IMG/VR virus record: IMGVR_UViG_3300025879_000089
Span: 1 to 26,402 of that record
Direction: 5' to 3' (one strand)
DNA: 26,402 nucleotides
Source of the DNA: a virus
In this document: positions 968 to 26,382 of the stretch, piece by piece
Numbering within the stretch: position 1 is the first letter of the stretch
Layout of the letters: each line of letters starts with the position of its first letter
Notes under the pieces: generated by a model
The model's input: the letters and a program-made list of their open reading frames with translations, nothing else
What the model was told of the DNA's origin: nothing
The model's database searches: none
Position numbers and translations under genes: made by a program

Positions 968-3900
968 TTATTGTATACTTAGAGATGCATCATTATTGTT
1001 GAAATTTACTATTTCCATAGTATATGTAAATTTACCAGTTCCCTGGAATGTATAGTATGTACTAATTGTTTGGTATCTTTCAGCAATTAAATTTATTACT
1101 TTTATAGGAATCAAATCTTCATTCCTTATGGTTAATTTACCTTCCATAGATGATCCGGTAGATGTACCACCAAAAGCACTAAATAATATAGTTGCGGGTA
1201 AATAATTAACCGTGATGCTTGAAGCTGTAGAACGAGTAGGGAAAGATATTGTTTTTACAACTCCATCATCTGTACTTGCTAACTTATATGATTCACATTT
1301 AATTGGTGGATTTATTGTAGAATTTGTTGTTATAGTTGAAGTATATGTATCTCCACCCTGAGCTAGTTTAGCTACATCTGTAAGTACTGTATATTTACCA
1401 CTAATTTCTGGTGCATTTTGATTATATATTTTAACTAAAGGTTTATCACCAGATGCTTCAGTTCCATTCCAATTTAAATGTACTAAAACAGTACCACTTA
1501 CTGAATTAATTATATGCAATTTAGTAAGACTAATATCTATTATTGGAATCGTTTGATTCGTTGCATAATAGATTGGAGTTAGATCTGATAATTGACATGC
1601 CGTATTTTTAGATGATGATGCACCAATAGTGTTATCAATACCACCATTTTCATTAATAATACCTGCTTTATAAATATAATTTTCATTAAATTTATCACCT
1701 ATAAATTCAGAACCATTCCAATATCTTCTATAACCAAAATTAACAAACTCTCTATACCAGCCTGCAGCTGCGTTACTACCTCCTTGTAACAAACTCGTTG
1801 CATTTTCAAAATCTTCAGAATTTATAATATATTCTGTGTTTGACGTAGATATAATTCCATTAAGACCAGTAACATCACTATCAAATGTTAAATCTATAGG
1901 TATTAAAATTGGACATATCTCCCTTAATGAAAATTGAGAACCATTCCAGTATCTTGATATATCATCTTTAGAATACCAGCCAGCTAGTGCTCTTGTTTGT
2001 TCATTATCATTATATAATATAATATTTGACATATCGCCAACTGCCCAATTAGTTGCACCGCCGGACCATCGATATGTTTGTGTGGTATTTAAACCACATG
2101 CATCATCACTACTAGTAGAAGGCCCTGCCAGTTCAATAGGAGTTAGCGTTATTTGATCTATATTTCCAGTTTTCCAGAAATAATCAAGTACCTTTAAATA
2201 TATTATATGTACATTTCTACTAATATTAAAATTACCACCGGTATTTAAACTAATTTGATCAGTTGTAGTATCTGTTGGTGTTATAAATTCACTGGTATAT
2301 TTACTATCAGTCGTATCATATGTTGATTGCATTTCTAGATTATAACCCCCGATAATAATTGGTGTATTATCACCACCCACTACAGGATCTTGATCACCGC
2401 CATTGCTATCTATATCAAAGTTAAATGAGTTTAAGTTTGGTACTTCATACTGTATATTTCCATCAGTCCATGTTTGGCCGTTACAAATATACCAACCTTC
2501 AAATGGTGTATCTTCACGACCCCTACCATAAATAATTTTTAATTCACTACCAAATCCTTGATCATTAATTTCATCAAGTTGAGATATTGAATATGTTAAA
2601 TAAAAATTATCATTATTAAACCAGTCTTCAGTTATTGAAATAATAGAACCTACTGGCAATGTACCAAAAACATCACTTTTATTTCTCCAAGCAGTATTAC
2701 CATTATTATCCAAAGATACTAATACTCTATTTTCAAGAGCATTATTTGTATATTTAAAATTTGAATTCGCAATAATATTAGATGATTCTAAACCTAATTT
2801 AGTATCTTTAGATCTGAATTTTAAGTTTGTATTGTTATTTACATTAGTATCAATACCTGTATCAATAAGATTCCATTTAGCTTTATCGCTATTAACAATA
2901 CTGGAAGCACCGCTACTATAGAACTTACTATCATTACCTTGATAAACATACATATCAGTATCTCGAACTCTTATCCTATAATAATCATTTTCTTCGTTCC
3001 ATTCTAATTTGAACTTTTTATCTATGTCATCAACTTCCGGTTCAAAGTTAGTACTTACTAATACAAATGGTGGATTAAAGTTTGGTCCAGTGGCTCTTAT
3101 AGAACCATTAGACTTAGAGTCAATATTGTAATAAGCACCTGTTTCTGTAAATCTCCATTTAGTACTATCTCCAATATCATCAATTTCTGCAATTAAAGGT
3201 TCTGTTGAATTTTCAGCAGCTCCTATATAATTACCAGTTTCTAAATTAACTAAATTATAAAAACTTGATATGATTGGATTTGAAACAGCTTGATTAGCTT
3301 CTAATAAATATTTATTATTTGATGGATCATTATGTAAAATATAATCCATCGTATCTAGATCATATTGGAGTTTTAATTTAGATGCACTATTAATTATATC
3401 ACCAATCTCTAACTTTTTAAAATCACCTTCTGTTGACAATTTAAAATGAAAATCTAAAGAGTTTGGTGAATTAATAATTAAATTACTAAGAGAAGCCTCA
3501 TGATTGTGTAATGTAGTTAAAGGTCCTTGAAAATTTATAGCCACTTGCTCATTATCAATCGACTCACTATAAGTCTGTCCAATTCCAATACGAATCGGCT
3601 GATATTCACTACCTACTTGAAAATTAGGATGTAGTGTTAAAAAATCATTATTTGATCCTTCAGTCCATGGACTAATACCTTGAGGTCCTTGTGGGCCTTG
3701 ATGTCCTTGTGCGCCTTGATGTCCTTGTGGACCTTGAGGTCCGTCTTCTCCAAAATTACCATATTCTCCTAAAGAACCTACAGGCCCTGTCATGCCTCCT
3801 AGGATAAATTGGTTAAAATTGTAATTAATTTTATCAATCTTATCTTTTGACCACCAAGATTCTACTTCTACTATTTTTATTTTCCATGTATCATTTAGAA

Positions 3901-4321
3901 TTGAATATGCTCCACTAGCATAAAAATTATTATCATCATTGTTGTGATAAATATATTGGCTAGTTCCACTTACTCTAATTCTGTAAGTGTCATCAGCTTC
4001 ATTATATAATAGATCAAATTCTTTATCATTATCAAAAGTGATAGGTTCTTTATTAGTACTCACCAATACAAGGGGTGGATTAAAGTTTGGCCCAGTTGCT
4101 CTTAAAACACCGCTATCTAACGAATCAATATTATAATTACCATCATCATTTAATATCAATGACCATTTAGTACTATTATCTATATCACTTGTTCTGGCAA
4201 TAGCTGGCTCCGATGAAGATTGAGCAGCACCAAGATATACGCCTGTATCAACGTTAATAATATTATAAACATTTGTACGGCTACTATCTGATTTAAATAT
4301 ATTTTTAATATTTATTGGCAT
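968..4321 (-). CDS. Tail fibre: duplicated beta-trefoil-like domains, collagen stalk, tail-collar domain
   Basis: This 1117-residue protein is a probable receptor-binding fibre. Residues 18-150 and 354-487 are two copies of one module, sharing TGPNFNPP, VLVSTN and EP, YRIRV, and FYASGA/FYSSGA. Its short glycine- and tryptophan-bearing beta repeats look like a ricin-type beta-trefoil, though the fold is inferred. Residues 177-216 are a collagen-like Gly-X-Y stalk rich in GPQG and HQG. Residues 554-632 (LPVGSIISI, EGWYICNGQTW, YEVPNLN), closing near 706-713 (IIYLKVLD), resemble the phage tail-collar domain. The C-terminal 400 residues hold two AGWY-RYWNGS repeats (738-804 and 824-880). These resemble short repeats seen in Bacteroidota surface proteins, so they may bind the host. 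Its ATG lies 3 bases past the previous stop, which implies translational coupling. There is no Shine-Dalgarno sequence. Confidence 0.93.
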   Translation of the reverse strand: MPINIKNIFKSDSSRTNVYNIINVDTGVYLGAAQSSSEPAIARTSDIDNSTKWSLILNDDGNYNIDSLDSGVLRATGPNFNPPLVLVSTNKEPITFDNDKEFDLLYNEADDTYRIRVSGTSQYIYHNNDDNNFYASGAYSILNDTWKIKIVEVESWWSKDKIDKINYNFNQFILGGMTGPVGSLGEYGNFGEDGPQGPQGHQGAQGHQGPQGPQGISPWTEGSNNDFLTLHPNFQVGSEYQPIRIGIGQTYSESIDNEQVAINFQGPLTTLHNHEASLSNLIINSPNSLDFHFKLSTEGDFKKLEIGDIINSASKLKLQYDLDTMDYILHNDPSNNKYLLEANQAVSNPIISSFYNLVNLETGNYIGAAENSTEPLIAEIDDIGDSTKWRFTETGAYYNIDSKSNGSIRATGPNFNPPFVLVSTNFEPEVDDIDKKFKLEWNEENDYYRIRVRDTDMYVYQGNDSKFYSSGASSIVNSDKAKWNLIDTGIDTNVNNNTNLKFRSKDTKLGLESSNIIANSNFKYTNNALENRVLVSLDNNGNTAWRNKSDVFGTLPVGSIISITEDWFNNDNFYLTYSISQLDEINDQGFGSELKIIYGRGREDTPFEGWYICNGQTWTDGNIQYEVPNLNSFNFDIDSNGGDQDPVVGGDNTPIIIGGYNLEMQSTYDTTDSKYTSEFITPTDTTTDQISLNTGGNFNISRNVHIIYLKVLDYFWKTGNIDQITLTPIELAGPSTSSDDACGLNTTQTYRWSGGATNWAVGDMSNIILYNDNEQTRALAGWYSKDDISRYWNGSQFSLREICPILIPIDLTFDSDVTGLNGIISTSNTEYIINSEDFENATSLLQGGSNAAAGWYREFVNFGYRRYWNGSEFIGDKFNENYIYKAGIINENGGIDNTIGASSSKNTACQLSDLTPIYYATNQTIPIIDISLTKLHIINSVSGTVLVHLNWNGTEASGDKPLVKIYNQNAPEISGKYTVLTDVAKLAQGGDTYTSTITTNSTINPPIKCESYKLASTDDGVVKTISFPTRSTASSITVNYLPATILFSAFGGTSTGSSMEGKLTIRNEDLIPIKVINLIAERYQTISTYYTFQGTGKFTYTMEIVNFNNNDASLSIQ
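2861..3262 (-). repeat. Second copy of duplicated beta-trefoil-like module
   Basis: This encodes residues 354-487 of the fibre protein. It aligns along its length with residues 18-150, sharing YNIxNVxTGxYLGAA-like, TGPNFNPP, LVSTN and YRIRV segments. The copies have diverged, so the duplication is not recent. One copy lies before and the other after the collagen stalk. Confidence 0.85.
3674..3793 (-). repeat. Collagen-like Gly-X-Y repeat
   Basis: This encodes residues 177-216 of the fibre protein, about a dozen Gly-X-Y triplets dominated by GPQ, GHQ and GAQ, with a less regular start. Such repeats are known in phage fibres as trimeric stalks. At DNA level it appears as repeated cctTG/ccttg units. 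Confidence 0.9.
3872..4270 (-). repeat. First copy of duplicated beta-trefoil-like module
   Basis: This encodes residues 18-150 of the fibre protein, close to the N-terminus. It is the partner of the copy at 2861-3262. A carbohydrate-binding role is plausible for a ricin-like fold but is not shown by the sequence. Confidence 0.85.
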
Positions 4322-15014: not shown

Positions 15015-17762
15015 TTAAATGATTTTTATGATATTTTTATTTGTTGTGTTTTTATTTCCATTAACATCAGTAAGCTCTAACTCAACTTTATAATCTCCTT
15101 TGTGTTTAAAAAGATGTGTTAGCCACTTATTATTATAATATATATCATCAACATTTATCGTATTATTTTTTAATACCCATCTTTGTGAAACTATTCCTGG
15201 CATATTAGTATTATCATATGACAATGTTAGATGATTTAACATTTTTAATTCTTCTTGTGAGTCAATTACTGATACATCAAAAAAGCTAGGATTATAACTT
15301 TCATGGTGTTGTTTTGAACCTTCAATTATTTCACCACCTAATGGATTATTAAAGTAAACATCCTCATAATCATAAGATCTTGACGGCTCTTCTCCAACTG
15401 CTAAAATATAATAACACTTATCTATAAAATCAAAATCACCATCTCCATCAACATCAACCGCTATATGATTAAAGTTAAATTTAGAAATTATGGGGTGATC
15501 TTCTGGATCTATTGAATTTAATTCAGTTGCAACGTTATAATGTCCTGTAACATCAGCATCTGATGTTGGATATGTTGATTGTATTGTATATTGATCTGTT
15601 TCAACAGCGTTGGTAATTGGGTTTATTCTTGTCATTATAAATATATGTCCATTCTGTTTTCCAGCAATATCCATTTTAAATGAAGCATTTATATCTCCAC
15701 CAACTCTTGTCATATTCCAATTTATCTCTTGACCATCATTCCAAACATGTGGTTTTAATTCATTCCATCTATAAGGTCCTGTAGTTTCAGCAAAACCAGT
15801 CAAGGAATTTTCATCCATATATCTTCTAACTGTTGAGAATGAATATCCTCCAACATCTTTTGCATCATGTACATAATTTGCTCGATCAAGCGTTAAATAA
15901 TATGTTGCAATAACATCTTCAACCTTTTCGGTATTTTCAGCGCCAGTATTCCAATCGCTTCCTGCATTATTCCAGGTATATTTGTATTGATTCCAATTTA
16001 ATTTTGGAAGTATCTTTTGAGTAACGCCGTATATTTCAACATTTTTACTCTTAACATTAATGTAGCCTGGTTTTCTATAAGAACTTCTAACATTAAAAAG
16101 ATCATACATTGCTAATTCAACACTATAATCTCCAGTAAATGGAAGTGTTATTGGAAATTTTGAATATGTGTCGATTGGTCCTCTAAAAGTCTTTAAATAA
16201 CCTCTGGGTCCGCTGATAATCCATTCAACTTCATAAATATTTTGTTTCCACCAATTATCCCATTCTAAATGGTCATCTCCAGTATCTTCAGCATCCATCC
16301 ATGTAAATTGTGCATCATCCCATGTTTCCTTGTATGATTCTATGTTTAATACGACTGGAGCACCTATTGGAATCCCAGATATTGTGTTAAACGTATCTAA
16401 ACTATTATCATAATAGGTTTCATAGAAAGAATTGATTGACTCTATAACTTCATTGGCATCTTTTTGATTTGTAAATGGAAAGGTTTGATTTATTCCAGTA
16501 AGTCTGTAATCAACCTTTCTTAAATCTTCAATAAATAACTGTCTATCCTCTGGGTATTTTTTAAATGCAACCTCAACACCTGCAGTTTGGTTTTTAATCA
16601 CATGTTGATTATTCCAAACGTTTAAATTAAATTGAGAGAAATAATCTCCCTCTCCAGTAATATCAACAATCTTAGCCTGTAGTGGCAAGTATTGTTTTTG
16701 AAGTTTTCTCTTAAGACCATATAATTTTATAAGAACTTCATCTGGGGAATAGTCTGTTGATTCTTTAACAGTTGGGATATCCCATTCATCTAATCCACCG
16801 TCGGCCTCGTTTAACCTATAAACTAATGAAAATCTTGAAGTTTTCTTTAAGTTTGAATTTGGAAGCTTAGTGTCATTATTTTTATTAGATAAAAAACCAA
16901 TACTGTCCTGTCCAGGAACTGCAATGGCTTTTAATTTACCAAAGTTCTCATTCTGTTCATTAATATTTAGCCAATATTCTTTAAGAGTTATTTTATCATA
17001 TCCAAAGAAATCGATTGCATTTAGTAAGGCTTTATATGTCCCAACAAATGGCTTAATCTGAGATGCTTGTAAAAGTAATTCTTTTCTCTTCTCATTTAAT
17101 ATTTTCCAGTCAGTTGAAAGCTCCTTTATATCTGACTTCTTAAAAATAAAATAGTCAGTCTCTTCAAGTAGCATTCCCATATTTGAAAGAAGAACTTTAA
17201 GTCTTTCATCCTCTCCTTCAACCTCTCCATATACTCTAATATTAGCAATTGGAATCACTTCCGAATTTGCGTCATTGACTAAGTTTATCTCAAGTATTCT
17301 AGTGTGATACCCTTCAACTTCGCTATTAAGTGCTATATTATAACTAATAGCAGATTTAGGTGTACTGTAGCTTACCGTGTTAACTCCAGTCACTTGATTG
17401 GTAGATACTGCGTAAGAATTATCTAATATTTTAAACTTTTGTTCAACTTGTTTCTGTACAAATAGATCTCCATCCTGCTGAGTTACACCATATAAAAAAA
17501 TATCATCACTAAATTCATAATCATTTAAAAATTTAGCGGTAAAATATGAGTCATCATTAATATTTGAAATTGGAGTTATCCATAGTTCATCGCCAAGACC
17601 GCCTGTTGCCTTTTCAAGAATATGGATTGTCAATGTCTCATAAAGACCTGTTGAAACTTCTGGTAAATAACAAACACCCTCCCATATATTTGTTTCTTGA
17701 TTAAAAATCAAGTTCAAATCATCTGAGTTATTATCAAAAAATCTTAAGTTTTGAATAGCCAT
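15015..17762 (-). CDS. gp7-like baseplate wedge protein with extra Trp-rich and Ca-loop segments
   Basis: This 915-residue protein directly follows the gp6 homologue and one small gene, where T4-like phages encode wedge protein gp7 (1032 residues in T4). Residues 201-265 (YFIFKKSDIKEL, DWKILNEKRKELLL, YKALLNAIDFFGYD, KEYWLN) look like the conserved core of gp7-like proteins in non-enterobacterial T4-like phages. Residues about 510-570 (YEVEWIISGPRG, GDYSVELAMYDLFN) and 860-915 (GDYKVELELTDVNGN) resemble PKD/Ig-like beta-sandwiches. Three tryptophan-rich segments (476-506, 588-606, 664-686) recur between them. Residues 770-781 (DVDGDGDFDFID) match an EF-hand calcium loop. It probably links the wedge core to peripheral proteins. 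The gp7 assignment rests on order and recalled family pattern. Confidence 0.8.
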   Translation of the reverse strand: MAIQNLRFFDNNSDDLNLIFNQETNIWEGVCYLPEVSTGLYETLTIHILEKATGGLGDELWITPISNINDDSYFTAKFLNDYEFSDDIFLYGVTQQDGDLFVQKQVEQKFKILDNSYAVSTNQVTGVNTVSYSTPKSAISYNIALNSEVEGYHTRILEINLVNDANSEVIPIANIRVYGEVEGEDERLKVLLSNMGMLLEETDYFIFKKSDIKELSTDWKILNEKRKELLLQASQIKPFVGTYKALLNAIDFFGYDKITLKEYWLNINEQNENFGKLKAIAVPGQDSIGFLSNKNNDTKLPNSNLKKTSRFSLVYRLNEADGGLDEWDIPTVKESTDYSPDEVLIKLYGLKRKLQKQYLPLQAKIVDITGEGDYFSQFNLNVWNNQHVIKNQTAGVEVAFKKYPEDRQLFIEDLRKVDYRLTGINQTFPFTNQKDANEVIESINSFYETYYDNSLDTFNTISGIPIGAPVVLNIESYKETWDDAQFTWMDAEDTGDDHLEWDNWWKQNIYEVEWIISGPRGYLKTFRGPIDTYSKFPITLPFTGDYSVELAMYDLFNVRSSYRKPGYINVKSKNVEIYGVTQKILPKLNWNQYKYTWNNAGSDWNTGAENTEKVEDVIATYYLTLDRANYVHDAKDVGGYSFSTVRRYMDENSLTGFAETTGPYRWNELKPHVWNDGQEINWNMTRVGGDINASFKMDIAGKQNGHIFIMTRINPITNAVETDQYTIQSTYPTSDADVTGHYNVATELNSIDPEDHPIISKFNFNHIAVDVDGDGDFDFIDKCYYILAVGEEPSRSYDYEDVYFNNPLGGEIIEGSKQHHESYNPSFFDVSVIDSQEELKMLNHLTLSYDNTNMPGIVSQRWVLKNNTINVDDIYYNNKWLTHLFKHKGDYKVELELTDVNGNKNTTNKNIIKII

Positions 17763-17765
17763 TTA

Positions 17766-18035
17766 TTATTTTACTTTTTTATCCTCTTTTTTAATAGTAA
17801 ATGATTTATAAGACCTTAAATAAGATACACTATCAATAATGTCTGCAAGCACATGTTGTATCATTATTAAAAAATCACTTAGACTTGGATTCCTCTGGAT
17901 GTGTCTAGAGAGAGAATTCAATAAAACGTTTTCTCTATATGTATTCCCAACATTTTTACGATCATCCATGATAGATTTCCTAACATCATAGTTCCTTTTC
18001 TTTCTTACTTTAAATAAATTCTTAGTAACATCCAT
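17766..18035 (-). CDS. Small basic protein between gp6 and gp7 homologues (89 aa)
   Basis: The start codon shares one base with the stop of the gp6 homologue (TAATG), and the stop lies 3 bases before the gp7-like ATG. Expression is therefore tightly coupled to both wedge proteins. The protein is strongly basic at both ends (KVRKKRNYDVRK and KKEDKKVK) with a hydrophobic helix between (residues 50-75, SLSDFLIMIQHVLADIIDSV). It is too short and too polar for a membrane anchor. I recognise no family. A wedge assembly factor or minor baseplate component is inferred from position. AAAGG lies 7 bases upstream of the ATG. It is the only Shine-Dalgarno-like sequence I saw in the window, and it falls inside the gp6 coding sequence, so it may be accidental. 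Confidence 0.8.
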   Translation of the reverse strand: MDVTKNLFKVRKKRNYDVRKSIMDDRKNVGNTYRENVLLNSLSRHIQRNPSLSDFLIMIQHVLADIIDSVSYLRSYKSFTIKKEDKKVK

Positions 18036-19855
18036 TATAGTGCCTTTCTATTTTGTGCTTGTAATCTACTGAACACTGTGTTTGGTACTGCAGGCTCGTC
18101 AAAATAAACTGAAAGTGCCGCAATTTCTCCCATTTTCGCCTCATCAGGTACCATTATGCCGTCGCGATCCATCCATCCGCCTCTAAATAGGGCAACCTCC
18201 TCCTTTTCAAGGATAATATCACCAAAAGAATCTAGATTAATAACCGCTTCTGGAAGAGCTGCACCTGGTTCAAAGTTAACTTGGTTTGTTACTACAGTCC
18301 TCTTAAAGAAAACATATTTTTGTTTTCCATTTCCTATCTCTTCAAGAACCGGAGTACTTGGAGTAACTGTTACAGTGTCTACTGAATAATATCCAAGTCT
18401 TCTTGCGGTTTCCTCCTTTTCAGAAGTAAATTTAACATTTACCGAATCAATACCTTCAACACCTTCTAGGAGTGCAATAATATCTGATTTTGGCAAACGA
18501 TCTCTTCTTGTTATGTTAATTAAATAGTCTGAAATCTTTGCACGAATTTCAGTATGTAGATTAGTCTTATTATATCCTTCAAAATATCTAACTTTAACAT
18601 CCATTCTAAAATATTGAACTTTAGGCTCCACAATTTTTACCTCAGTTGTAACCATTTGTTGTCTACTATTTTCTAATGTTGAAAGTATTCCATTCTTTTC
18701 GTCTTCTGAGAAAAAGAACTCATCTACTGATAAATTAAAATAGTCGTTATTTTTTGAAAGTTTTTTCTTAGTGTCTGGTAACATAAACAAATAAATCACA
18801 TTGTCATCGTCTAAATATCCATCGTCAGTTGTGTTGTATGCATCTAGGTATGAAAACATGCCGTATTTTGAAAGAAATGCTTCATAGTTTTCAGGAGTTG
18901 CAAGAACAAATGAATGACTCTGTAGCGGGGCAATTAACTTAGTTAATTCAGTACTTTCAGGGTTGGCTCCCATTTTAGGTGCTGTTGTAAAATTAGCCTC
19001 TAACATATTATTTAAATCGAATGTATCACCAAGTGAATCAAATCCTTCAGTTATAAATTTAAATCTTAAATCTTTAGAACCTGTTAAATTACCATTCGCA
19101 CCATCCGTAATTAAATACTCAACCTCAATAGAAGCACCTTCAACTGGAATCATTCCAAATGAACCATTTCCAAAATAAATATCAAGACCTCCAGTTATTC
19201 CAGTCTTAACAAGATAACCCTTGGTTCCAAATTTCATATCATATAGAGAATCGTATTTAGTCCAAAGCTCGCTATTAACACTTACTCTAACCGAATGATG
19301 GTCTGTGTTTCCTTTTGTAATAATATTAAAAGACTGCAAACTTTCACCAGTACCTGTAACTATTTGTGTCTCAATTTTACCTTGAATTACTGGTATTGTA
19401 ATATAGTTTGGGTTACTTTTTTCAATTCTAAATTGGTCATTGTTTGTTCTTAATATGTATTCTAACATATTCTTTTCAGCCTTAATTATAGTGTTCGCTG
19501 GTATATTCAGGGCATCTCCGCCAATATCATTTCCAGCTAAAGTATTTAATCTTACCTGGATTTCTCCTATAGCTGATGCGCCTCTAAATGAATCATGTCC
19601 TGCCAATCTTGATAAACCATATATAGATTCAGGATTTTGGGCAGTTAGAATATTTTGTTCAACTGTAGAGTCTTCTATATAATAGAATATCATCTCAGTT
19701 AAGCTTGAAAGAACACTTAGTATCTGAGAAAATGGAGATGCTGTGGTAAATAATTCACCAGCACGGCCATATATTCTAGAGATATATGATTGAGTGTCGG
19801 TAATCATCTCATTGGCTCTAATTCTAGCCGTTGATAAAAATTTAAATTCTGCCAT
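18035..19855 (-). CDS. gp6-like baseplate wedge protein (baseplate J family)
   Basis: At 606 residues it is close to T4 gp6 (660). Residues 10-75 (RANEMITDTQSYISRIYG, TEMIFYYIEDSTVEQNIL) form the helical N-terminus typical of gp6. Residues about 224-257 (YFGNGSFGMIP, GASIEVEYLITDGANGN) carry the hallmark baseplate J signature: FGNG-G-P-G-I-Y-DG-GN. Later segments include QYFRMDVKVRYFEGY and a DRLPKSDIIALLEGVEGIDS stretch, also typical of the family. gp6 dimers bind gp25 and gp7 and form the inner ring that joins the six wedges around the hub. It lies 17 bases downstream of gp25, the usual partner. There is no Shine-Dalgarno sequence upstream of the ATG. Confidence 0.92.
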   Translation of the reverse strand: MAEFKFLSTARIRANEMITDTQSYISRIYGRAGELFTTASPFSQILSVLSSLTEMIFYYIEDSTVEQNILTAQNPESIYGLSRLAGHDSFRGASAIGEIQVRLNTLAGNDIGGDALNIPANTIIKAEKNMLEYILRTNNDQFRIEKSNPNYITIPVIQGKIETQIVTGTGESLQSFNIITKGNTDHHSVRVSVNSELWTKYDSLYDMKFGTKGYLVKTGITGGLDIYFGNGSFGMIPVEGASIEVEYLITDGANGNLTGSKDLRFKFITEGFDSLGDTFDLNNMLEANFTTAPKMGANPESTELTKLIAPLQSHSFVLATPENYEAFLSKYGMFSYLDAYNTTDDGYLDDDNVIYLFMLPDTKKKLSKNNDYFNLSVDEFFFSEDEKNGILSTLENSRQQMVTTEVKIVEPKVQYFRMDVKVRYFEGYNKTNLHTEIRAKISDYLINITRRDRLPKSDIIALLEGVEGIDSVNVKFTSEKEETARRLGYYSVDTVTVTPSTPVLEEIGNGKQKYVFFKRTVVTNQVNFEPGAALPEAVINLDSFGDIILEKEEVALFRGGWMDRDGIMVPDEAKMGEIAALSVYFDEPAVPNTVFSRLQAQNRKAL

Positions 19856-19872
19856 TTTGTTAATATTCTATT

Positions 19873-20226
19873 TTATACATAAACTTCGATTTTATATCTA
19901 TTGTCTATTGTTATATCTATAAAAACTACATTTTTTTCAGTTTGACTTAAAAAATCAACAGAAACTGTAGTGTTATATTTTTTTGCTAATGGAATGTATG
20001 TATCAAATTGATCGGTGATAACCCCCTTTAGCATTCCATCGTTATACATAAATGAATATACATAATCTTCCAAGTTTGCACCAAAATTAACGGCTCCTAA
20101 AACATCTCCTTTTTTTGTAAAAAGACACATTTCAATTTGAGTTAACAACATTCCAATTTCTTCATCAACTTGAAGTGTATTAACATCGTATCCAGGATCG
20201 CCTATATCTTTTATGTAAAATTCCAT
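19873..20226 (-). CDS. gp25-like baseplate wedge protein (GPW/gp25 family)
   Basis: This 117-residue protein compares with 132 residues for T4 gp25. It shows the family pattern: a hydrophobic helical stretch (GMLLTQIEMCLFTKKGDVLG), the signature GANLEDYVYSF, then amphipathic helices and a closing pair of strands (NVVFIDITIDNRYKIEVYV). Members of this family have lysozyme-like annotations in old databases but act structurally, binding gp6 and initiating the sheath at the baseplate. The gene is directly upstream of the gp6 homologue with a 17-base gap, which matches the physical partnership. The ATG follows a very A/T-rich leader. Confidence 0.93.
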   Translation of the reverse strand: MEFYIKDIGDPGYDVNTLQVDEEIGMLLTQIEMCLFTKKGDVLGAVNFGANLEDYVYSFMYNDGMLKGVITDQFDTYIPLAKKYNTTVSVDFLSQTEKNVVFIDITIDNRYKIEVYV

Positions 20227-20245: not shown

Positions 20246-21073
20246 TTAAGAGTGCATCATCCAATCAGTACCCTCATCACTTTTAATTTCTTCAACAACT
20301 GCTTCAAGCTCACTTTCACCCATTCCCTGTATCAGGTCTGCATTTACTGTAACATTTCCAGGAAGAACAAATCCAAATACTCCAAGTTTTTGACCTAAAG
20401 AAATTTTAATTTTAGCAGCACAATATCTAAAGAAAGCCTCATCACCATATAGCGAGCAATCAGGAATAGTTTCATAAACTTCAAGAACAACATCTTTAAA
20501 TGGAGTTTCCCCTGTAAATCGTAACTCATGTGTTAATTGACTATACTGATAACTAATTGGGTTGTGGATAATTTGACGTGCTAGATCAAAGAAGCTTTCA
20601 TTAATTACATAATATTGTAAGTTCTCTGCAGCATATCCTGTTTTAGAACCTCCATAGGTACCTCCAAGCATCATTCTTTCAATCGCAAAATCTCCTTGCG
20701 TAAAATTAATATCCATACTACCTCCCCAATTTGAACCAACGGGAGCACACGCAAACACTGAAAAGATTTCTCCGCCGCTACCATCTGTTGGGGGTTCGAA
20801 AGTAAAACTTCTTGTTTTTTTAAAATGTTCAGACTTAAATAAACCTTTTGGTAAAACTATAAAGTTTTCTCTAACAGAGTACTCATAATTTTTATAGAAC
20901 CATTTTTTCGCACGTTTAACTATATTTTGAACCTCTTTTTTTGGAAGATTCATTGGAATCATACATGAACCTGTAATTTCGTCTGCTAATTCATTAACAA
21001 ACGTGTTAAAACAATCAGTTTGATAAACTGGGTCTTGTAAATTTGATTCATTTCCTATATAAATATCACTCAT
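20246..21073 (-). CDS. Conserved-looking virion structural protein (275 aa)
   Basis: I do not recognise a named family. The N-terminus (FNTFVNELADEITGSCMIP, then LPKKEVQNIVKRAKKWFYKN) and C-terminus (RYCAAKIKISLGQKLGVFGF, LPGNVTVNADLIQGMGESEL) look well conserved and resemble, from memory, structural proteins encoded next to gp25/gp6 in large T4-like phages. A central section (DFAIERMMLGGTYGGSK, YYVINESFFDLARQII, LEVYETIPDCSLYGDEAF) suggests a mixed alpha/beta fold. It sits between the amidoligase and gp25, with short gaps on both sides (15 and 19 bases). It could fill the role of T4 gp53, a wedge component missing by name here, but similarity to gp53 is not evident. It has no signal peptide or membrane segment. 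Confidence 0.88.
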   Translation of the reverse strand: MSDIYIGNESNLQDPVYQTDCFNTFVNELADEITGSCMIPMNLPKKEVQNIVKRAKKWFYKNYEYSVRENFIVLPKGLFKSEHFKKTRSFTFEPPTDGSGGEIFSVFACAPVGSNWGGSMDINFTQGDFAIERMMLGGTYGGSKTGYAAENLQYYVINESFFDLARQIIHNPISYQYSQLTHELRFTGETPFKDVVLEVYETIPDCSLYGDEAFFRYCAAKIKISLGQKLGVFGFVLPGNVTVNADLIQGMGESELEAVVEEIKSDEGTDWMMHS

Positions 21074-21088
21074 TTCTTTTTATTATTT

Positions 21089-22381
21089 TTATATTGGTGT
21101 TGATAGTATTATTTCAGTTTGATTAAATACAGTTGTCTTTTTATCGTATCCTCCCTCTCGGAATATTCCTCCATTCATTGTTCCTTTAAAAGAACCCTTT
21201 CCATAAACATAACAATCATCAGTTACAACACTACGATGAACGTACGAACTTTTAAGTTTTGATGTTGTTATTTGTGATGAAGCATAGAAGTTACAAGAGT
21301 CAATATCAGAACCCTCAATTTGACACGTAAACATATCACAATATCTAAACTCTCCTCTTAAAAAACAATTGACAAAATCATAACCATCTAGATCAACACA
21401 GTAATCAAGTCTTCCATTTTGCACTTGAATCCTGCCAGTGTCTGAGTCATAATTGATGTGACCCTTACTAAAATTACCATGTGTGAATAATTTTATAACT
21501 CGTTGTTTAATATTGCTCCAGTATAAAGAAACTATTTTAGGGTCATCTTTGAGATCTACGGTAAATTTAGTGTCTTTCCAATTTTGAGATATTGTTTTCC
21601 AGTCACTTCTGGCGTCAATTATTCTTTGATTGTTAGAAATTATCCTTTTAAGTTCAATTGCATTGAGTTCTGTAAATTGAGTCGTTTCAGTTGAATTCCA
21701 TAATTGAATTAAAAATCTATCAATAAGGTGTAATATTGTAGTAGTTTTCTTTTGCCAATCCTTTCCACCAACATATCTAAATTCAAGATAATTTTTATGT
21801 CTTTTTTCAAAATTGATACCATAATATTTTGAATCAGGGTAGATAAAGTTTTGTTGGTTTATATGTTTTCCATCAAAAAATGAAACATCATCCTTTGGTA
21901 TAACAAATTTAATTGATTTTGCATAAGCTGAATCCTCTCTTTGTGGAAAAAACTTAAACACTTGCTCTTCATTAAAATCTAGGATAAACTTAAGAGTGTT
22001 CATCTTAGAGATTCTATATTTATTGTCTATTTTATTTTTGTCAAAAGAAAGATTTAAATGAATTGAAGATCTGTCATTAGTATACCCATTCTCATCAATC
22101 CATTGGTTAACTTTGATAATCATTAAGCGTGCGGCAAAATATGGAAGTGCCCCGGTAACAAGCTCCATAAGCTTTGCACCGCCGCTCATATCTGGTTCTA
22201 TCTTAAACTCATCTTGGGTTACTTCAAAGTCACTGTGTGCTTTTTCCTCAATACGAATTTTTTTACCAATAAGTTCCGCAATTTGCTTTGAAGTTTCTTC
22301 TATACTTAAATTTGAATAAAATTCAAATTCCACACCAACAAGCGCATTTTCAAGTATTTTAGAGTCATTTAAGTTATTCAT
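21089..22381 (-). CDS. Probable amidoligase with C-terminal beta-helix-like tail
   Basis: Residues 12-205 carry motifs of the amidoligase / carboxylate-amine ligase fold related to glutamine synthetase and gamma-glutamyl-cysteine ligase. These are GVEFEF (G16, E18, E20), EPDMSGG with MELVTG (D64, S66, E73), SIHLNL (H108) and LEFRY (E200, R202). In that fold such Glu, His and Arg residues bind metal, ATP and the acidic substrate. Such enzymes join a carboxylate to an amine using ATP. The substrate here is unknown. Residues about 324-420 (CVDLDGYDFVNCFLRGEF, RYCDMFTCQIEGSDIDSC) are short repeats like a beta-helix or pentapeptide-type tail, rich in cysteine. The gene starts a new unit after the terminator at 22452-22477 and has a promoter-like GATATATAA 31 bases upstream. 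It could modify virion proteins, but nothing in the sequence shows this. Confidence 0.75.
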   Translation of the reverse strand: MNNLNDSKILENALVGVEFEFYSNLSIEETSKQIAELIGKKIRIEEKAHSDFEVTQDEFKIEPDMSGGAKLMELVTGALPYFAARLMIIKVNQWIDENGYTNDRSSIHLNLSFDKNKIDNKYRISKMNTLKFILDFNEEQVFKFFPQREDSAYAKSIKFVIPKDDVSFFDGKHINQQNFIYPDSKYYGINFEKRHKNYLEFRYVGGKDWQKKTTTILHLIDRFLIQLWNSTETTQFTELNAIELKRIISNNQRIIDARSDWKTISQNWKDTKFTVDLKDDPKIVSLYWSNIKQRVIKLFTHGNFSKGHINYDSDTGRIQVQNGRLDYCVDLDGYDFVNCFLRGEFRYCDMFTCQIEGSDIDSCNFYASSQITTSKLKSSYVHRSVVTDDCYVYGKGSFKGTMNGGIFREGGYDKKTTVFNQTEIILSTPI

Positions 22382-22451: not shown

Positions 22452-22477
22452 AACCCGAGACTAAAAAATCTCGGGTT
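22452..22477 (-). terminator. Rho-independent terminator after S1-domain gene
   Basis: A perfect 9-base stem (AACCCGAGA pairing with TCTCGGGTT) with an 8-base loop is followed on the minus strand by TTTGTTTATAT. It lies 27 bases beyond the stop of the S1-domain gene and is far more GC-rich than its surroundings. It should end minus-strand transcripts here. The plus strand also has a T-rich stretch a few bases on, but no plus-strand gene is present. Confidence 0.9.
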
Positions 22478-22503: not shown

Positions 22504-23796
22504 TTATAGTTTTAGAAAAACCTTTCTTGTATCAACCTCAATTCTTGTAATTTTAACTGTGATTGTATCGTTCTTTTCAATTGAATCTTTATCAAATTCT
22601 TCTGGAAATTCAGAAACATGCAATAAACCTACAACACCTTCTCCAATATCTAAAAATACACCGTAATCTTTAATAGATTTAACAACACCAGCAACTTCCA
22701 TTGGGAACGTTGTATATTTTTCAGCGATTAATTTCCAAGGGTCAACTACTTCAACTTTTTCTATCTGTGTTAATGTAATTTTATTATTGCTAATTACCTC
22801 CTTAATCTTAAATTGAATCTCATCTCCTGGTTTAATTTCTCTTGCTTTATGTTTCTTAGCAGTTTCTGGATCAAGATCATTTGTATGAATCATTCCAGTT
22901 AAACAACCTTCAAATTCTACAAATACTCCATATTTTGCAGATCCAGTGACATTACCTGTTCTAGTAACATCCATATTAGCAGATACCTCTTCAACTTTAT
23001 TTGGAATCAATGCTTGTAAGTATTTTCTATGAGATACTACGATTGTTCCTTTTTCAGGAGAATAATTCATTGGTACAACATATAATTCAGTTCCAATAAT
23101 AGATTCAAAATCTACTAATTTATTAATTCCTGCAAGAGAACCTGGCATAAAACAATCTATACCTTGTACGTTTACAATATAACCACCGCCTTGAATCATA
23201 CTTAAAACCGTTGCAACATAAGCCGTGTTACCGTCTTCAATTGATTCTAGTAATTCTTTAGTAATTGCGGATTTAACTCCAGCCTCCACTGAACCAATAA
23301 TAAATCCTTTCTTATTAGATGTTCTGTCTCCTGTGATTTGAACTGAAATTGTATTTCCAGGAATTAATTTAGATTTAGAAGCCGATGACTCTCTAGATAA
23401 ATCAACATACACTAGTTCTCTATAACCAACGTCAATTGAACACCATTCCATATCTAGCGCATATATCTTACCCTCATGTGTCTCTCCAACTTTAATATCG
23501 AAGGTGGTTTGATTTTCACTATTGCTATAGAAGCTTTCCATTAAATCATATAACTCCTGTGCGTATGATTCTCTAGAATATACCTTGTCTCCATTTTTTG
23601 TTTTAATATGAGGGTTAGGTTTTCTAGTTGTTGATGGACATCCTGCAATATGTTCATCCCAATTAAATTCTTCAAGCGAAGGGTTTGCATTAATTGTGTA
23701 TGGAGTTTCTTTTGCTTCTTTTACAATAACTTCATCGTTAGTGTTTTCTGTAGAATCTTTGATTCTTAATCTTTTTGTTTTTGTGTCTTGTGACAT
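22504..23796 (-). CDS. Four-S1-domain RNA-binding protein
   Basis: This 430-residue protein has a polar N-terminal region of about 100 residues and then four S1 (OB-fold) repeats at about 102-170, 187-257, 275-345 and 364-430. The last two are the clearest: GNVTGSAKYGVFVEFEGCLT with GMIHTNDL, and GVVKSIKDYGVFLDIGEGVV with GLLHVSEFP, both with the canonical G-x-V-x-G-V-F-V/L pattern. The second repeat (GGGYIVNVQGIDCFMPGS, then VVSHRKYL) resembles the ribosome-binding half of ribosomal protein S1. Bacterial S1 has six repeats, so this is a shorter form. It probably binds single-stranded RNA and could act in translation of phage mRNA or in RNA protection. It lies inside a baseplate module, preceded by a promoter-like motif and followed by a strong terminator. 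Confidence 0.9.
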   Translation of the reverse strand: MSQDTKTKRLRIKDSTENTNDEVIVKEAKETPYTINANPSLEEFNWDEHIAGCPSTTRKPNPHIKTKNGDKVYSRESYAQELYDLMESFYSNSENQTTFDIKVGETHEGKIYALDMEWCSIDVGYRELVYVDLSRESSASKSKLIPGNTISVQITGDRTSNKKGFIIGSVEAGVKSAITKELLESIEDGNTAYVATVLSMIQGGGYIVNVQGIDCFMPGSLAGINKLVDFESIIGTELYVVPMNYSPEKGTIVVSHRKYLQALIPNKVEEVSANMDVTRTGNVTGSAKYGVFVEFEGCLTGMIHTNDLDPETAKKHKAREIKPGDEIQFKIKEVISNNKITLTQIEKVEVVDPWKLIAEKYTTFPMEVAGVVKSIKDYGVFLDIGEGVVGLLHVSEFPEEFDKDSIEKNDTITVKITRIEVDTRKVFLKL

Positions 23797-25662: not shown

Positions 25663-26382
25663 TTATTTATTTATTTGTTGATAATCCTCGTGTGTGCTAC
25701 TTAATTGACTAATTGTCGCAGGGGTTGCTCCAACTGGAGTACCAGAAGGACCTACTCCAGTTGGATGAAAATGAGTTTTATAATCATCTAATAGTTTTTG
25801 TAACCATTCTTGTAATGATGCACCTCGAACTACAGGTTCTGTTTCATCTTCACTACCTTCACCAGTATTAGAAAGAAATACATTACCAGCATCTAAGAAT
25901 ATCTTTTCATCTGTTGTTATTTTGATAAAACCTTGTTCGTCAATTTGAATTAGCGGTCTCTCTTTAGCGCCGCTTCCTCGAGTAATTACCAGACCGTCCT
26001 CTGGCGAGTGATAGATTCTAACATTTCTTACAGAATCATAAACTAATGAAACAACATCTTGTGGTGCAGCAGAAGGGTCTAAAATATCAGCCTTTAATGC
26101 TTTACTTTGATTAATTTGAAACCAATACTCTGGATGATAGATATTACCATTGTCAAATCTAACTGCAACAACAGTCCCAATATTTGGAATTGAATGAGAA
26201 CCAACATGGTCACGATTCATTGGAGTAGCCCATGGAATCGCTTCACTTGGAAGGTCATCAAATTTACCAAACACCTTTACTCTACATCTCCCTAAATTAG
26301 AAGGGTCCGCATTATCTACGACCTCTCCAATCCAATGAGTGTCTCTTATTTTATTTTTTCCAGCTTCTTTCCCAATACTCAT
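25663..26382 (-). CDS. gp5-like baseplate hub/spike protein with OB-fold, no lysozyme domain
   Basis: Residues 16-88 match the N-terminal OB-fold of the T4 gp5 / gpV spike family: WIGEVVDNADPSNLGRCRVK, IPWATPM, IGTVVAVRFDNGN, PEYWF. Residues 110-170 are beta-strand repeats (VRIYHSPEDGLVITRGSG, IQIDEQGFIKITTDEKIFLD) that probably form a short trimeric beta-helix. Residues 188-220 (ASLQEWLQKLLDDYKTHFHP, then TGVGPSGTPVG) match the H-x-H and GPSG-P ending common in spike proteins. At 239 residues it is less than half of T4 gp5 (575) and has no muramidase domain between OB-fold and helix. It should sit at the centre of the baseplate and form the membrane-piercing spike. Only 20 bases upstream are visible, with AATATATAC at 26391-26399, 9 bases before the ATG. 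Confidence 0.9.
   Translation of the reverse strand: MSIGKEAGKNKIRDTHWIGEVVDNADPSNLGRCRVKVFGKFDDLPSEAIPWATPMNRDHVGSHSIPNIGTVVAVRFDNGNIYHPEYWFQINQSKALKADILDPSAAPQDVVSLVYDSVRNVRIYHSPEDGLVITRGSGAKERPLIQIDEQGFIKITTDEKIFLDAGNVFLSNTGEGSEDETEPVVRGASLQEWLQKLLDDYKTHFHPTGVGPSGTPVGATPATISQLSSTHEDYQQINK

Follow-up and report, generated by a model that had tools for sequence, protein, structure and literature searches.

A solenoid-fused amidoligase encoded in the baseplate operon of a family of giant phages

We analysed a stretch of viral DNA of 26,402 nucleotides (IMG/VR virus record IMGVR_UViG_3300025879_000089), hereafter called the window, and found in it a gene for a 430-amino-acid protein (P0001) in which an amidoligase domain is fused to a C-terminal beta-solenoid. 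The gene is located within a baseplate operon, and a solenoid-fused amidoligase in this position is a new arrangement of a known enzyme family. Each related baseplate operon that we examined had the gene in the same place, including those of a few lineages with a broken catalytic site, which suggests that the gene has a function in tail assembly rather than being a metabolic passenger. We tentatively propose that the protein is a core tail or baseplate member in a family of giant phages, which would act on or in baseplate assembly, ligating amides in most lineages, and would be needed even in lineages in which this chemistry was lost.

Amidoligase domain, catalytic residues and C-terminal solenoid

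An earlier sequence-only reading assigned an open reading frame at 21089-22381 to the amidoligase fold on the basis of the motifs GVEFEF, DMSGG..MELVTG, IHLNL and LEFRY. We recovered the frame with exactly these ends (ATG at 22381 and stop at 21089 on the minus strand), all four motifs were found with the same residue numbering, and the fold was borne out by the Pfam family Amidoligase_2 (PF12224), by an AlphaFold model and by structural alignment with glutamine synthetase. Thus, the fold and the link to a baseplate described in that reading stood, but it had overlooked the C-terminal beta-solenoid and the natural active-site-dead versions of the protein, both of which are described below. The features of the gene and of its surroundings are listed in Table 1.

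The window protein matched PF12224 with 35.5 bits (cut-off 22; E=1.3e-8). Its close relative L002 matched with 40.5 bits across residues 14-219, and the scores of the distant relatives L164 (21.5 bits) and LR745206 (15.2 bits) were under the cut-off. No match of the window protein was detected in profile searches of PHROGs and NCBIfam. Membership in PF12224 rests on the Pfam match and the fold, because hhalign comparisons, which used small alignments, were not significant against the amidoligases of the phages LUZ24 and tf or against glutamine synthetases (E=0.061 for the latter); further, no Gln-synt Pfam match was listed for the window protein.

All eight catalytic positions (E18, E20, D64, E73, H108, N110, E200 and R202) were present in the window protein, and the whole set was kept in 114 of 118 distinct relatives. 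E20 was invariant and each of the other seven residues was found in 115-117 of the 118 proteins. The full set was also present in relatives with approximately 30% identity and in Agrobacterium phage Atu_ph07; in the distant relative L164, H108 alone was missing. A chance match of the motifs was ruled out by the Pfam score, by this conservation and by the matches in a viral structure library, most of which were proteins bearing the name amidoligase.

The AlphaFold model of the whole protein had a pLDDT of 90.5 and a pTM of 0.81. When residues 1-235 were aligned with glutamine synthetase using VIA-align, a Z of 11.9 was obtained, with an rmsd of 3.4 over 187 residues. Foldseek whole-chain TM-scores against glutamine synthetases were low (about 0.3), as the chains have a single domain in common. 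Judging from the fold match and the order of the motifs, the catalytic residues would lie in one pocket.

Because glutamine synthetases filled the structure search of the whole model, we modelled the C-terminal domain separately and used that model for a search of its own. Residues 296-430 modelled alone had a pLDDT of 95.2. This domain aligned at Z 8-11 with beta-solenoids, including the pentapeptide-repeat proteins AlbG, EfsQnr and MfpA; the solenoid class was seen by VIA-align only, a Foldseek search of the domain alone against the PDB having given no significant match (best E 6e-3). A profile match to AlbG in the PDB was obtained at E=6e-4. The pentapeptide-repeat Pfam families (PF00805/PF13599) were not matched by the window protein, and their matches in a minority of relatives were all under the cut-off (best 26.8 bits against 38). 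The model thus predicts a C-terminal domain whose solenoid fold is supported by these comparisons.

Table 1. Features of the amidoligase-solenoid gene and its neighbours in the window
Feature	Position	Strand	Basis
gpV-like spike/hub OB protein	25663..26382	-	Phage_base_V E=3.5e-8; phrog_430
S1-domain (ribosomal protein S1-like) protein, upstream neighbour	22504..23796	-	PF00575 E=6.1e-23
Intrinsic terminator between S1-like and amidoligase genes	22452..22477	-	11-pair stem, T tract
Amidoligase-solenoid gene, 430 aa (P0001)	21089..22381	-	ORF; PF12224 E=1.3e-8; 118 distinct family proteins aligned
N-terminal amidoligase domain, residues 1-235, glutamine-synthetase-like fold	21677..22381	-	AlphaFold pLDDT 90.5; VIA-align Z 11.9; PF12224
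Motif GVEFEF (16-21; E18, E20)	22319..22336	-	E20 118/118, E18 115/118 distinct relatives
Motif DMSGGAKLMELVTG (64-77; D64, E73)	22151..22192	-	D64 116/118, E73 116/118
Motif IHLNL (107-111; H108, N110)	22049..22063	-	H108 115/118, N110 117/118
Loop KSIKFVIP (155-162; K155, K158)	21896..21919	-	K155 and K158 116/118
Motif KYYGINF (185-191; K185, N190)	21809..21829	-	117/118 each
Motif LEFRY (199-203; E200, R202)	21773..21787	-	116/118 each
Predicted C-terminal right-handed beta-solenoid, about residues 301-430	21092..21481	-	Model pLDDT 95.2; VIA-align Z 8-11
Head-tail adaptor (Ad2)-like protein, directly downstream	20246..21073	-	phrog_211 E=1.2e-8
Small gp25/W-like baseplate protein, assigned by position and order	19873..20226	-	phrog_33571 (unknown function) E=4.7e-4 only; synteny
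Baseplate wedge protein (gpJ-like)	18035..19855	-	phrog_219 E=4.5e-33
gpI-like tail protein with PKD-like domain	15015..17762	-	Weak Tail_P2_I and PKD matches; synteny

Baseplate operon context and distribution

The gene had been read from the sequence as lying between hub and wedge genes of a baseplate module. This position was confirmed, with a gpV-like spike/hub gene upstream and adaptor-like, gp25/W-like and gpJ-like wedge genes downstream. The gene order in the window's clade was V spike/hub, a variable protein, the S1-domain protein, the amidoligase, the adaptor-like protein, the W-like protein, the J wedge protein, a small protein and the gpI-like protein. In the window, the variable protein is 596 amino acids long and sits between the spike/hub gene and the S1-domain gene. 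NCBIfam models of 30S ribosomal protein S1 matched the S1-domain protein, all under the cut-off.

The tie to the baseplate module was stronger than had been claimed. To avoid ascertainment through the amidoligase, loci were fetched by their wedge (J) protein, with at least 3 kb of upstream sequence required, and all 53 such loci carried the amidoligase gene. The identity of J was at least 70% in 34 of these loci, 55-70% in six and below 55% in 13, down to approximately 40%. The order S1-amidoligase-adaptor-W-J was observed in every wedge-fetched locus whose order was listed. Further, of 164 fetched loci long enough to include the adaptor gene, 157 had it directly after the amidoligase gene, although many contigs were fetched twice and these loci are therefore not independent. 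The amidoligase (median identity 69%) was as conserved as the spike (69%) and the adaptor (70%). The presence of the gene in all 53 wedge loci provides a handle on tail building in widespread uncultured giant phages.

Clear hairpins that differed in sequence were found at about the same site as the window's terminator in approximately 20 distinct relatives. Because this strong terminator lies after the S1 gene and its position is kept in relatives, the amidoligase gene is likely the first gene of an adaptor-W-J unit in those phages, and in the window the wedge transcription unit probably starts with it. In a promoter search, promoter-like sites were not more common than in shuffled sequences. 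Note that operon membership alone is no proof of a structural role, since the S1-like gene is linked as well.

Relatives of the protein, found from the single sequence, were encoded in at least 193 IMG/VR stretches, and those that we extracted were all full-length frames, except for one cut by a contig end. Deeper clades were reached through LR756500-LR756504 and LR745206, metagenomic records of huge phages that are 462-735 kb long. When phage records were searched using tblastn, matches were limited to metagenomic huge phages and Atu_ph07. A profile built from 31 members detected one clear copy per record in 10 of 10 large-phage records, some of which are near-duplicates, and additional matches in two of them were weak and marginal. 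No plasmid matched the amidoligase protein, and the only matches in a scan of bacterial and archaeal genomes were two small MAG contigs; in one of them the S1, adaptor, W and J neighbours are the same. On these grounds, we rejected the explanation that the gene is a host or plasmid metabolic gene acquired by the phage.

The amidoligase gene of the deeper megaphage clades usually lay at the edge of the tail module (gp53-like wedge protein, c2, c5, c3 and V), mostly on the other strand; in a few of these phages (L087 and L205), we recognised no adjacent tail gene. The gene is therefore not always co-transcribed with baseplate genes. We found no neighbouring candidate substrate gene that was conserved across all clades.

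Several other genes were observed in these genomes. In most megaphages of the deep clades, the amidoligase gene had beside it or nearby a gene for a DHH-phosphoesterase-like protein with a winged-helix region (cluster c8; L086 11829-13820 and relatives). Homing-endonuclease-like proteins (c14) with repeated KxxxLEKxGVxx segments were encoded beside the amidoligase or the adaptor in several megaphages (L083 13074-14279, L183 11403-13160, L201, L085 and L087). The records behind L098 and L100 (G005 and G006) carried two thymidylate-synthase-family genes each, one of which was matched in two pieces within a 433-amino-acid frame. In the window itself, positions 968-4321 on the minus strand encode a fibre-like protein in which a collagen-like stretch, GPQGPQG, and two YNxxNxxTGxYxGA segments were observed.

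Active-site-dead relatives and possible function

Three relatives have lost much of the catalytic set. Among 49 near-invariant columns, L035 had 11 changes, including E18K, D64G, H108Y and R202K; L263 had seven, including E18A, E73N, H108L and E200K; and L273 had 13, including E18G, D64N, E73S, N110Q, E200D and R202K. All three (L035, gene 2867-4156; L263; L273) were full length, kept the solenoid and occupied the usual syntenic place. In a tree of the family made without 20 active-site columns, L035 grouped with the intact L215 and L002, and L263 and L273 grouped together (support 0.85) within a clade that is otherwise intact. Given these separate placements, catalysis was lost at least twice independently. 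These versions are known from partial contigs, and a second, intact copy is possible elsewhere in those genomes.

Judged by pairwise omega values of about 0.07-0.24, the dead versions are kept under purifying selection; synonymous sites were near saturation in these comparisons and part of the divergence may predate the losses. Two phages that were 91% identical over 13 kb diverged sharply in the catalytic half of L035, by as much as 44% within 100 bases, a peak that is consistent with recombination. Hypermutation of the G-to-A type was rejected as the source of the L035 losses, because the spectrum of substitutions was mixed. The retention of dead yet full-length versions argues for a role besides enzyme activity; judging from these sequence comparisons, the protein probably serves as a scaffold or in assembly as well, and most lineages would additionally carry out amide-bond chemistry. 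Further, the natural active-site-dead versions are ready controls that separate scaffold from catalysis.

In our tentative model, the solenoid would dock the protein on the baseplate during assembly. In most lineages, the N-terminal domain would activate a carboxylate at the expense of ATP and couple it to an amine, and the product would be an isopeptide or a gamma-glutamyl-type amide on a tail component or on a ligand bound to it. A non-catalytic role would retain the protein in lineages without the active site. Hydropathy revealed no obvious signal-peptide-like or membrane segment, so the protein would act in the cytoplasm or in the particle, and it may be present in the virion or in an assembly intermediate. 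A more specific version is that the protein is a baseplate-resident, ATP-driven ligase of virion maturation, which sets amide bonds on tail proteins as cross-links or side-chain conjugates and of which the scaffold role alone remains in some lineages; we consider this version doubtful. The isopeptide cross-links of the HK97 capsid form without a ligase, and we know of no description of a contractile tail whose assembly includes amide-bond formation by an enzyme as an integral step.

The enzyme might instead be expressed late as a modifier of peptidoglycan stem peptides or their precursors, which would exclude superinfecting phages or protect the host wall. A role of this kind was proposed for the cassette amidoligases of phiEco32, LUZ24, tf and RIO-1-like phages (PMC5498523, PMC10580990); the window protein belongs to the same family, PF12224, and is cytoplasmic by hydropathy. 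However, none of the cassette partners (GATase, RimK and gamma-glutamyl cyclotransferase) was found in the window operon, and they were not found as a set in the records searched, so that we rejected membership in a peptidoglycan cassette of the LUZ24, phiEco32 and RIO-1 type. GATase_6 was detected in none of 11 records, and a gamma-glutamyl cyclotransferase was detected in three of 10 large-phage records, distant from the amidoligase. A RimK-type ATP-grasp protein was detected in one record, its absence from the others being weak evidence because the RimK gene annotated in LUZ24 was likewise not detected by the model used. The position in a wedge operon and the fusion to a solenoid are also unlike LUZ24/tf-type cassettes. 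Wall modification is thus weaker than the tail-assembly model in view of the gene context and the missing partners, and we regard it as unlikely. It is quite unlikely that the protein is purely structural, with a fold recruited as a baseplate part and a vestigial catalysis. The retention of L035, L263 and L273 in synteny, at full length and under purifying selection would be explained in this manner, but the whole catalytic set in 114 of 118 relatives would be unexpected were catalysis useless.

GCS/GS-fold enzymes typically form gamma-glutamyl or amide bonds on small molecules. Folate polyglutamate has been reported in T4 baseplates, with gp29 and gp28 named as the enzymes responsible. A small-molecule ligase that serves a tail cofactor or metabolite, for example through gamma-glutamylation of folate, would fit this chemistry and the thymidylate synthase-family genes that megaphages encode. 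Nevertheless, we judge it improbable, because no folate gene adjoins the amidoligase gene in the window, no thymidylate synthase-family gene was detected in Atu_ph07, which has the enzyme, and our literature search found no support for the T4 precedent. It is highly improbable that the enzyme modifies the adjacent S1-domain protein or the ribosome in the way that RimK acts on S6. An S1-like gene usually adjoins the amidoligase gene on its upstream side in the window's clade and also in L083 and L164; in contrast, the S1-like protein is encoded far from it in the deep megaphages, no S1 domain was detected in Atu_ph07, which carries the amidoligase, and the terminator parts the two genes in the window.

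Comparison with known systems

LUZ24 gp18 and Pseudomonas phage tf_21 belong to the same PF12224 family and have the same GS/GCS fold and motif set, the equivalent motifs being GFEVELEG, GDGSL..EY, STHLHMD, KYSALN and IEFRG. KYYGINF of the window protein is in register with KYSALN in an alignment that was not itself significant. The LUZ24 and tf genes are located in early metabolic cassettes with a COOH-NH2 ligase, GATase, RimK and gamma-glutamyl cyclotransferase, and phage amidoligases of this family have been described in early metabolic regions with GATase, a RimK-type ligase and gamma-glutamyl cyclotransferase (PMC3890496). In contrast, the window gene probably heads a baseplate operon without cassette neighbours, and its product is fused to a solenoid. 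In the literature that we searched, phage members of the family were described as metabolic or anti-superinfection genes and none was placed in a baseplate operon.

Atu_ph07 encodes a clear homologue (AUZ94978.1; A0A2L0UZM1, 'Amidoligase enzyme'; profile E=1.2e-20) with all eight catalytic residues, two genes from the portal gene; counted from the portal gp198, it is gp196. Unlike the window protein, it had no recognisable solenoid match and its gene is outside any wedge operon. The published description of Atu_ph07 gives 131 virion proteins, concentrated in CDS 31-76, 170-215 and 284-329 (PMC6102473), and by this numbering gp196 falls inside the cluster at CDS 170-215. The same two-domain architecture was found in A0A6J5PQ40, a protein of an uncultured Caudovirales phage for which no function is named, with a TM-score of 0.84 over 444 aligned columns and just 21% identity to the window protein.

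Glutamine synthetase and gamma-glutamylmethylamide synthetase have the same catalytic-sheet fold (Z 11-12 over 180-195 residues) at about 10-14% identity to the window protein. The order of motifs in the invariant columns of the glutamine synthetases' own alignment (GxExEF, the E..E pair, HxH/N, SxKx3P and ExR) is also the same, and the spacing of the KSIKFVIP loop equals their S-x-K-x(3)-P (consensus NSYKRLVP). The pentapeptide-repeat proteins AlbG, Qnr and MfpA are right-handed solenoids, as the C-terminal domain of the window protein is predicted to be; unlike these proteins, the window solenoid is fused to an enzyme.
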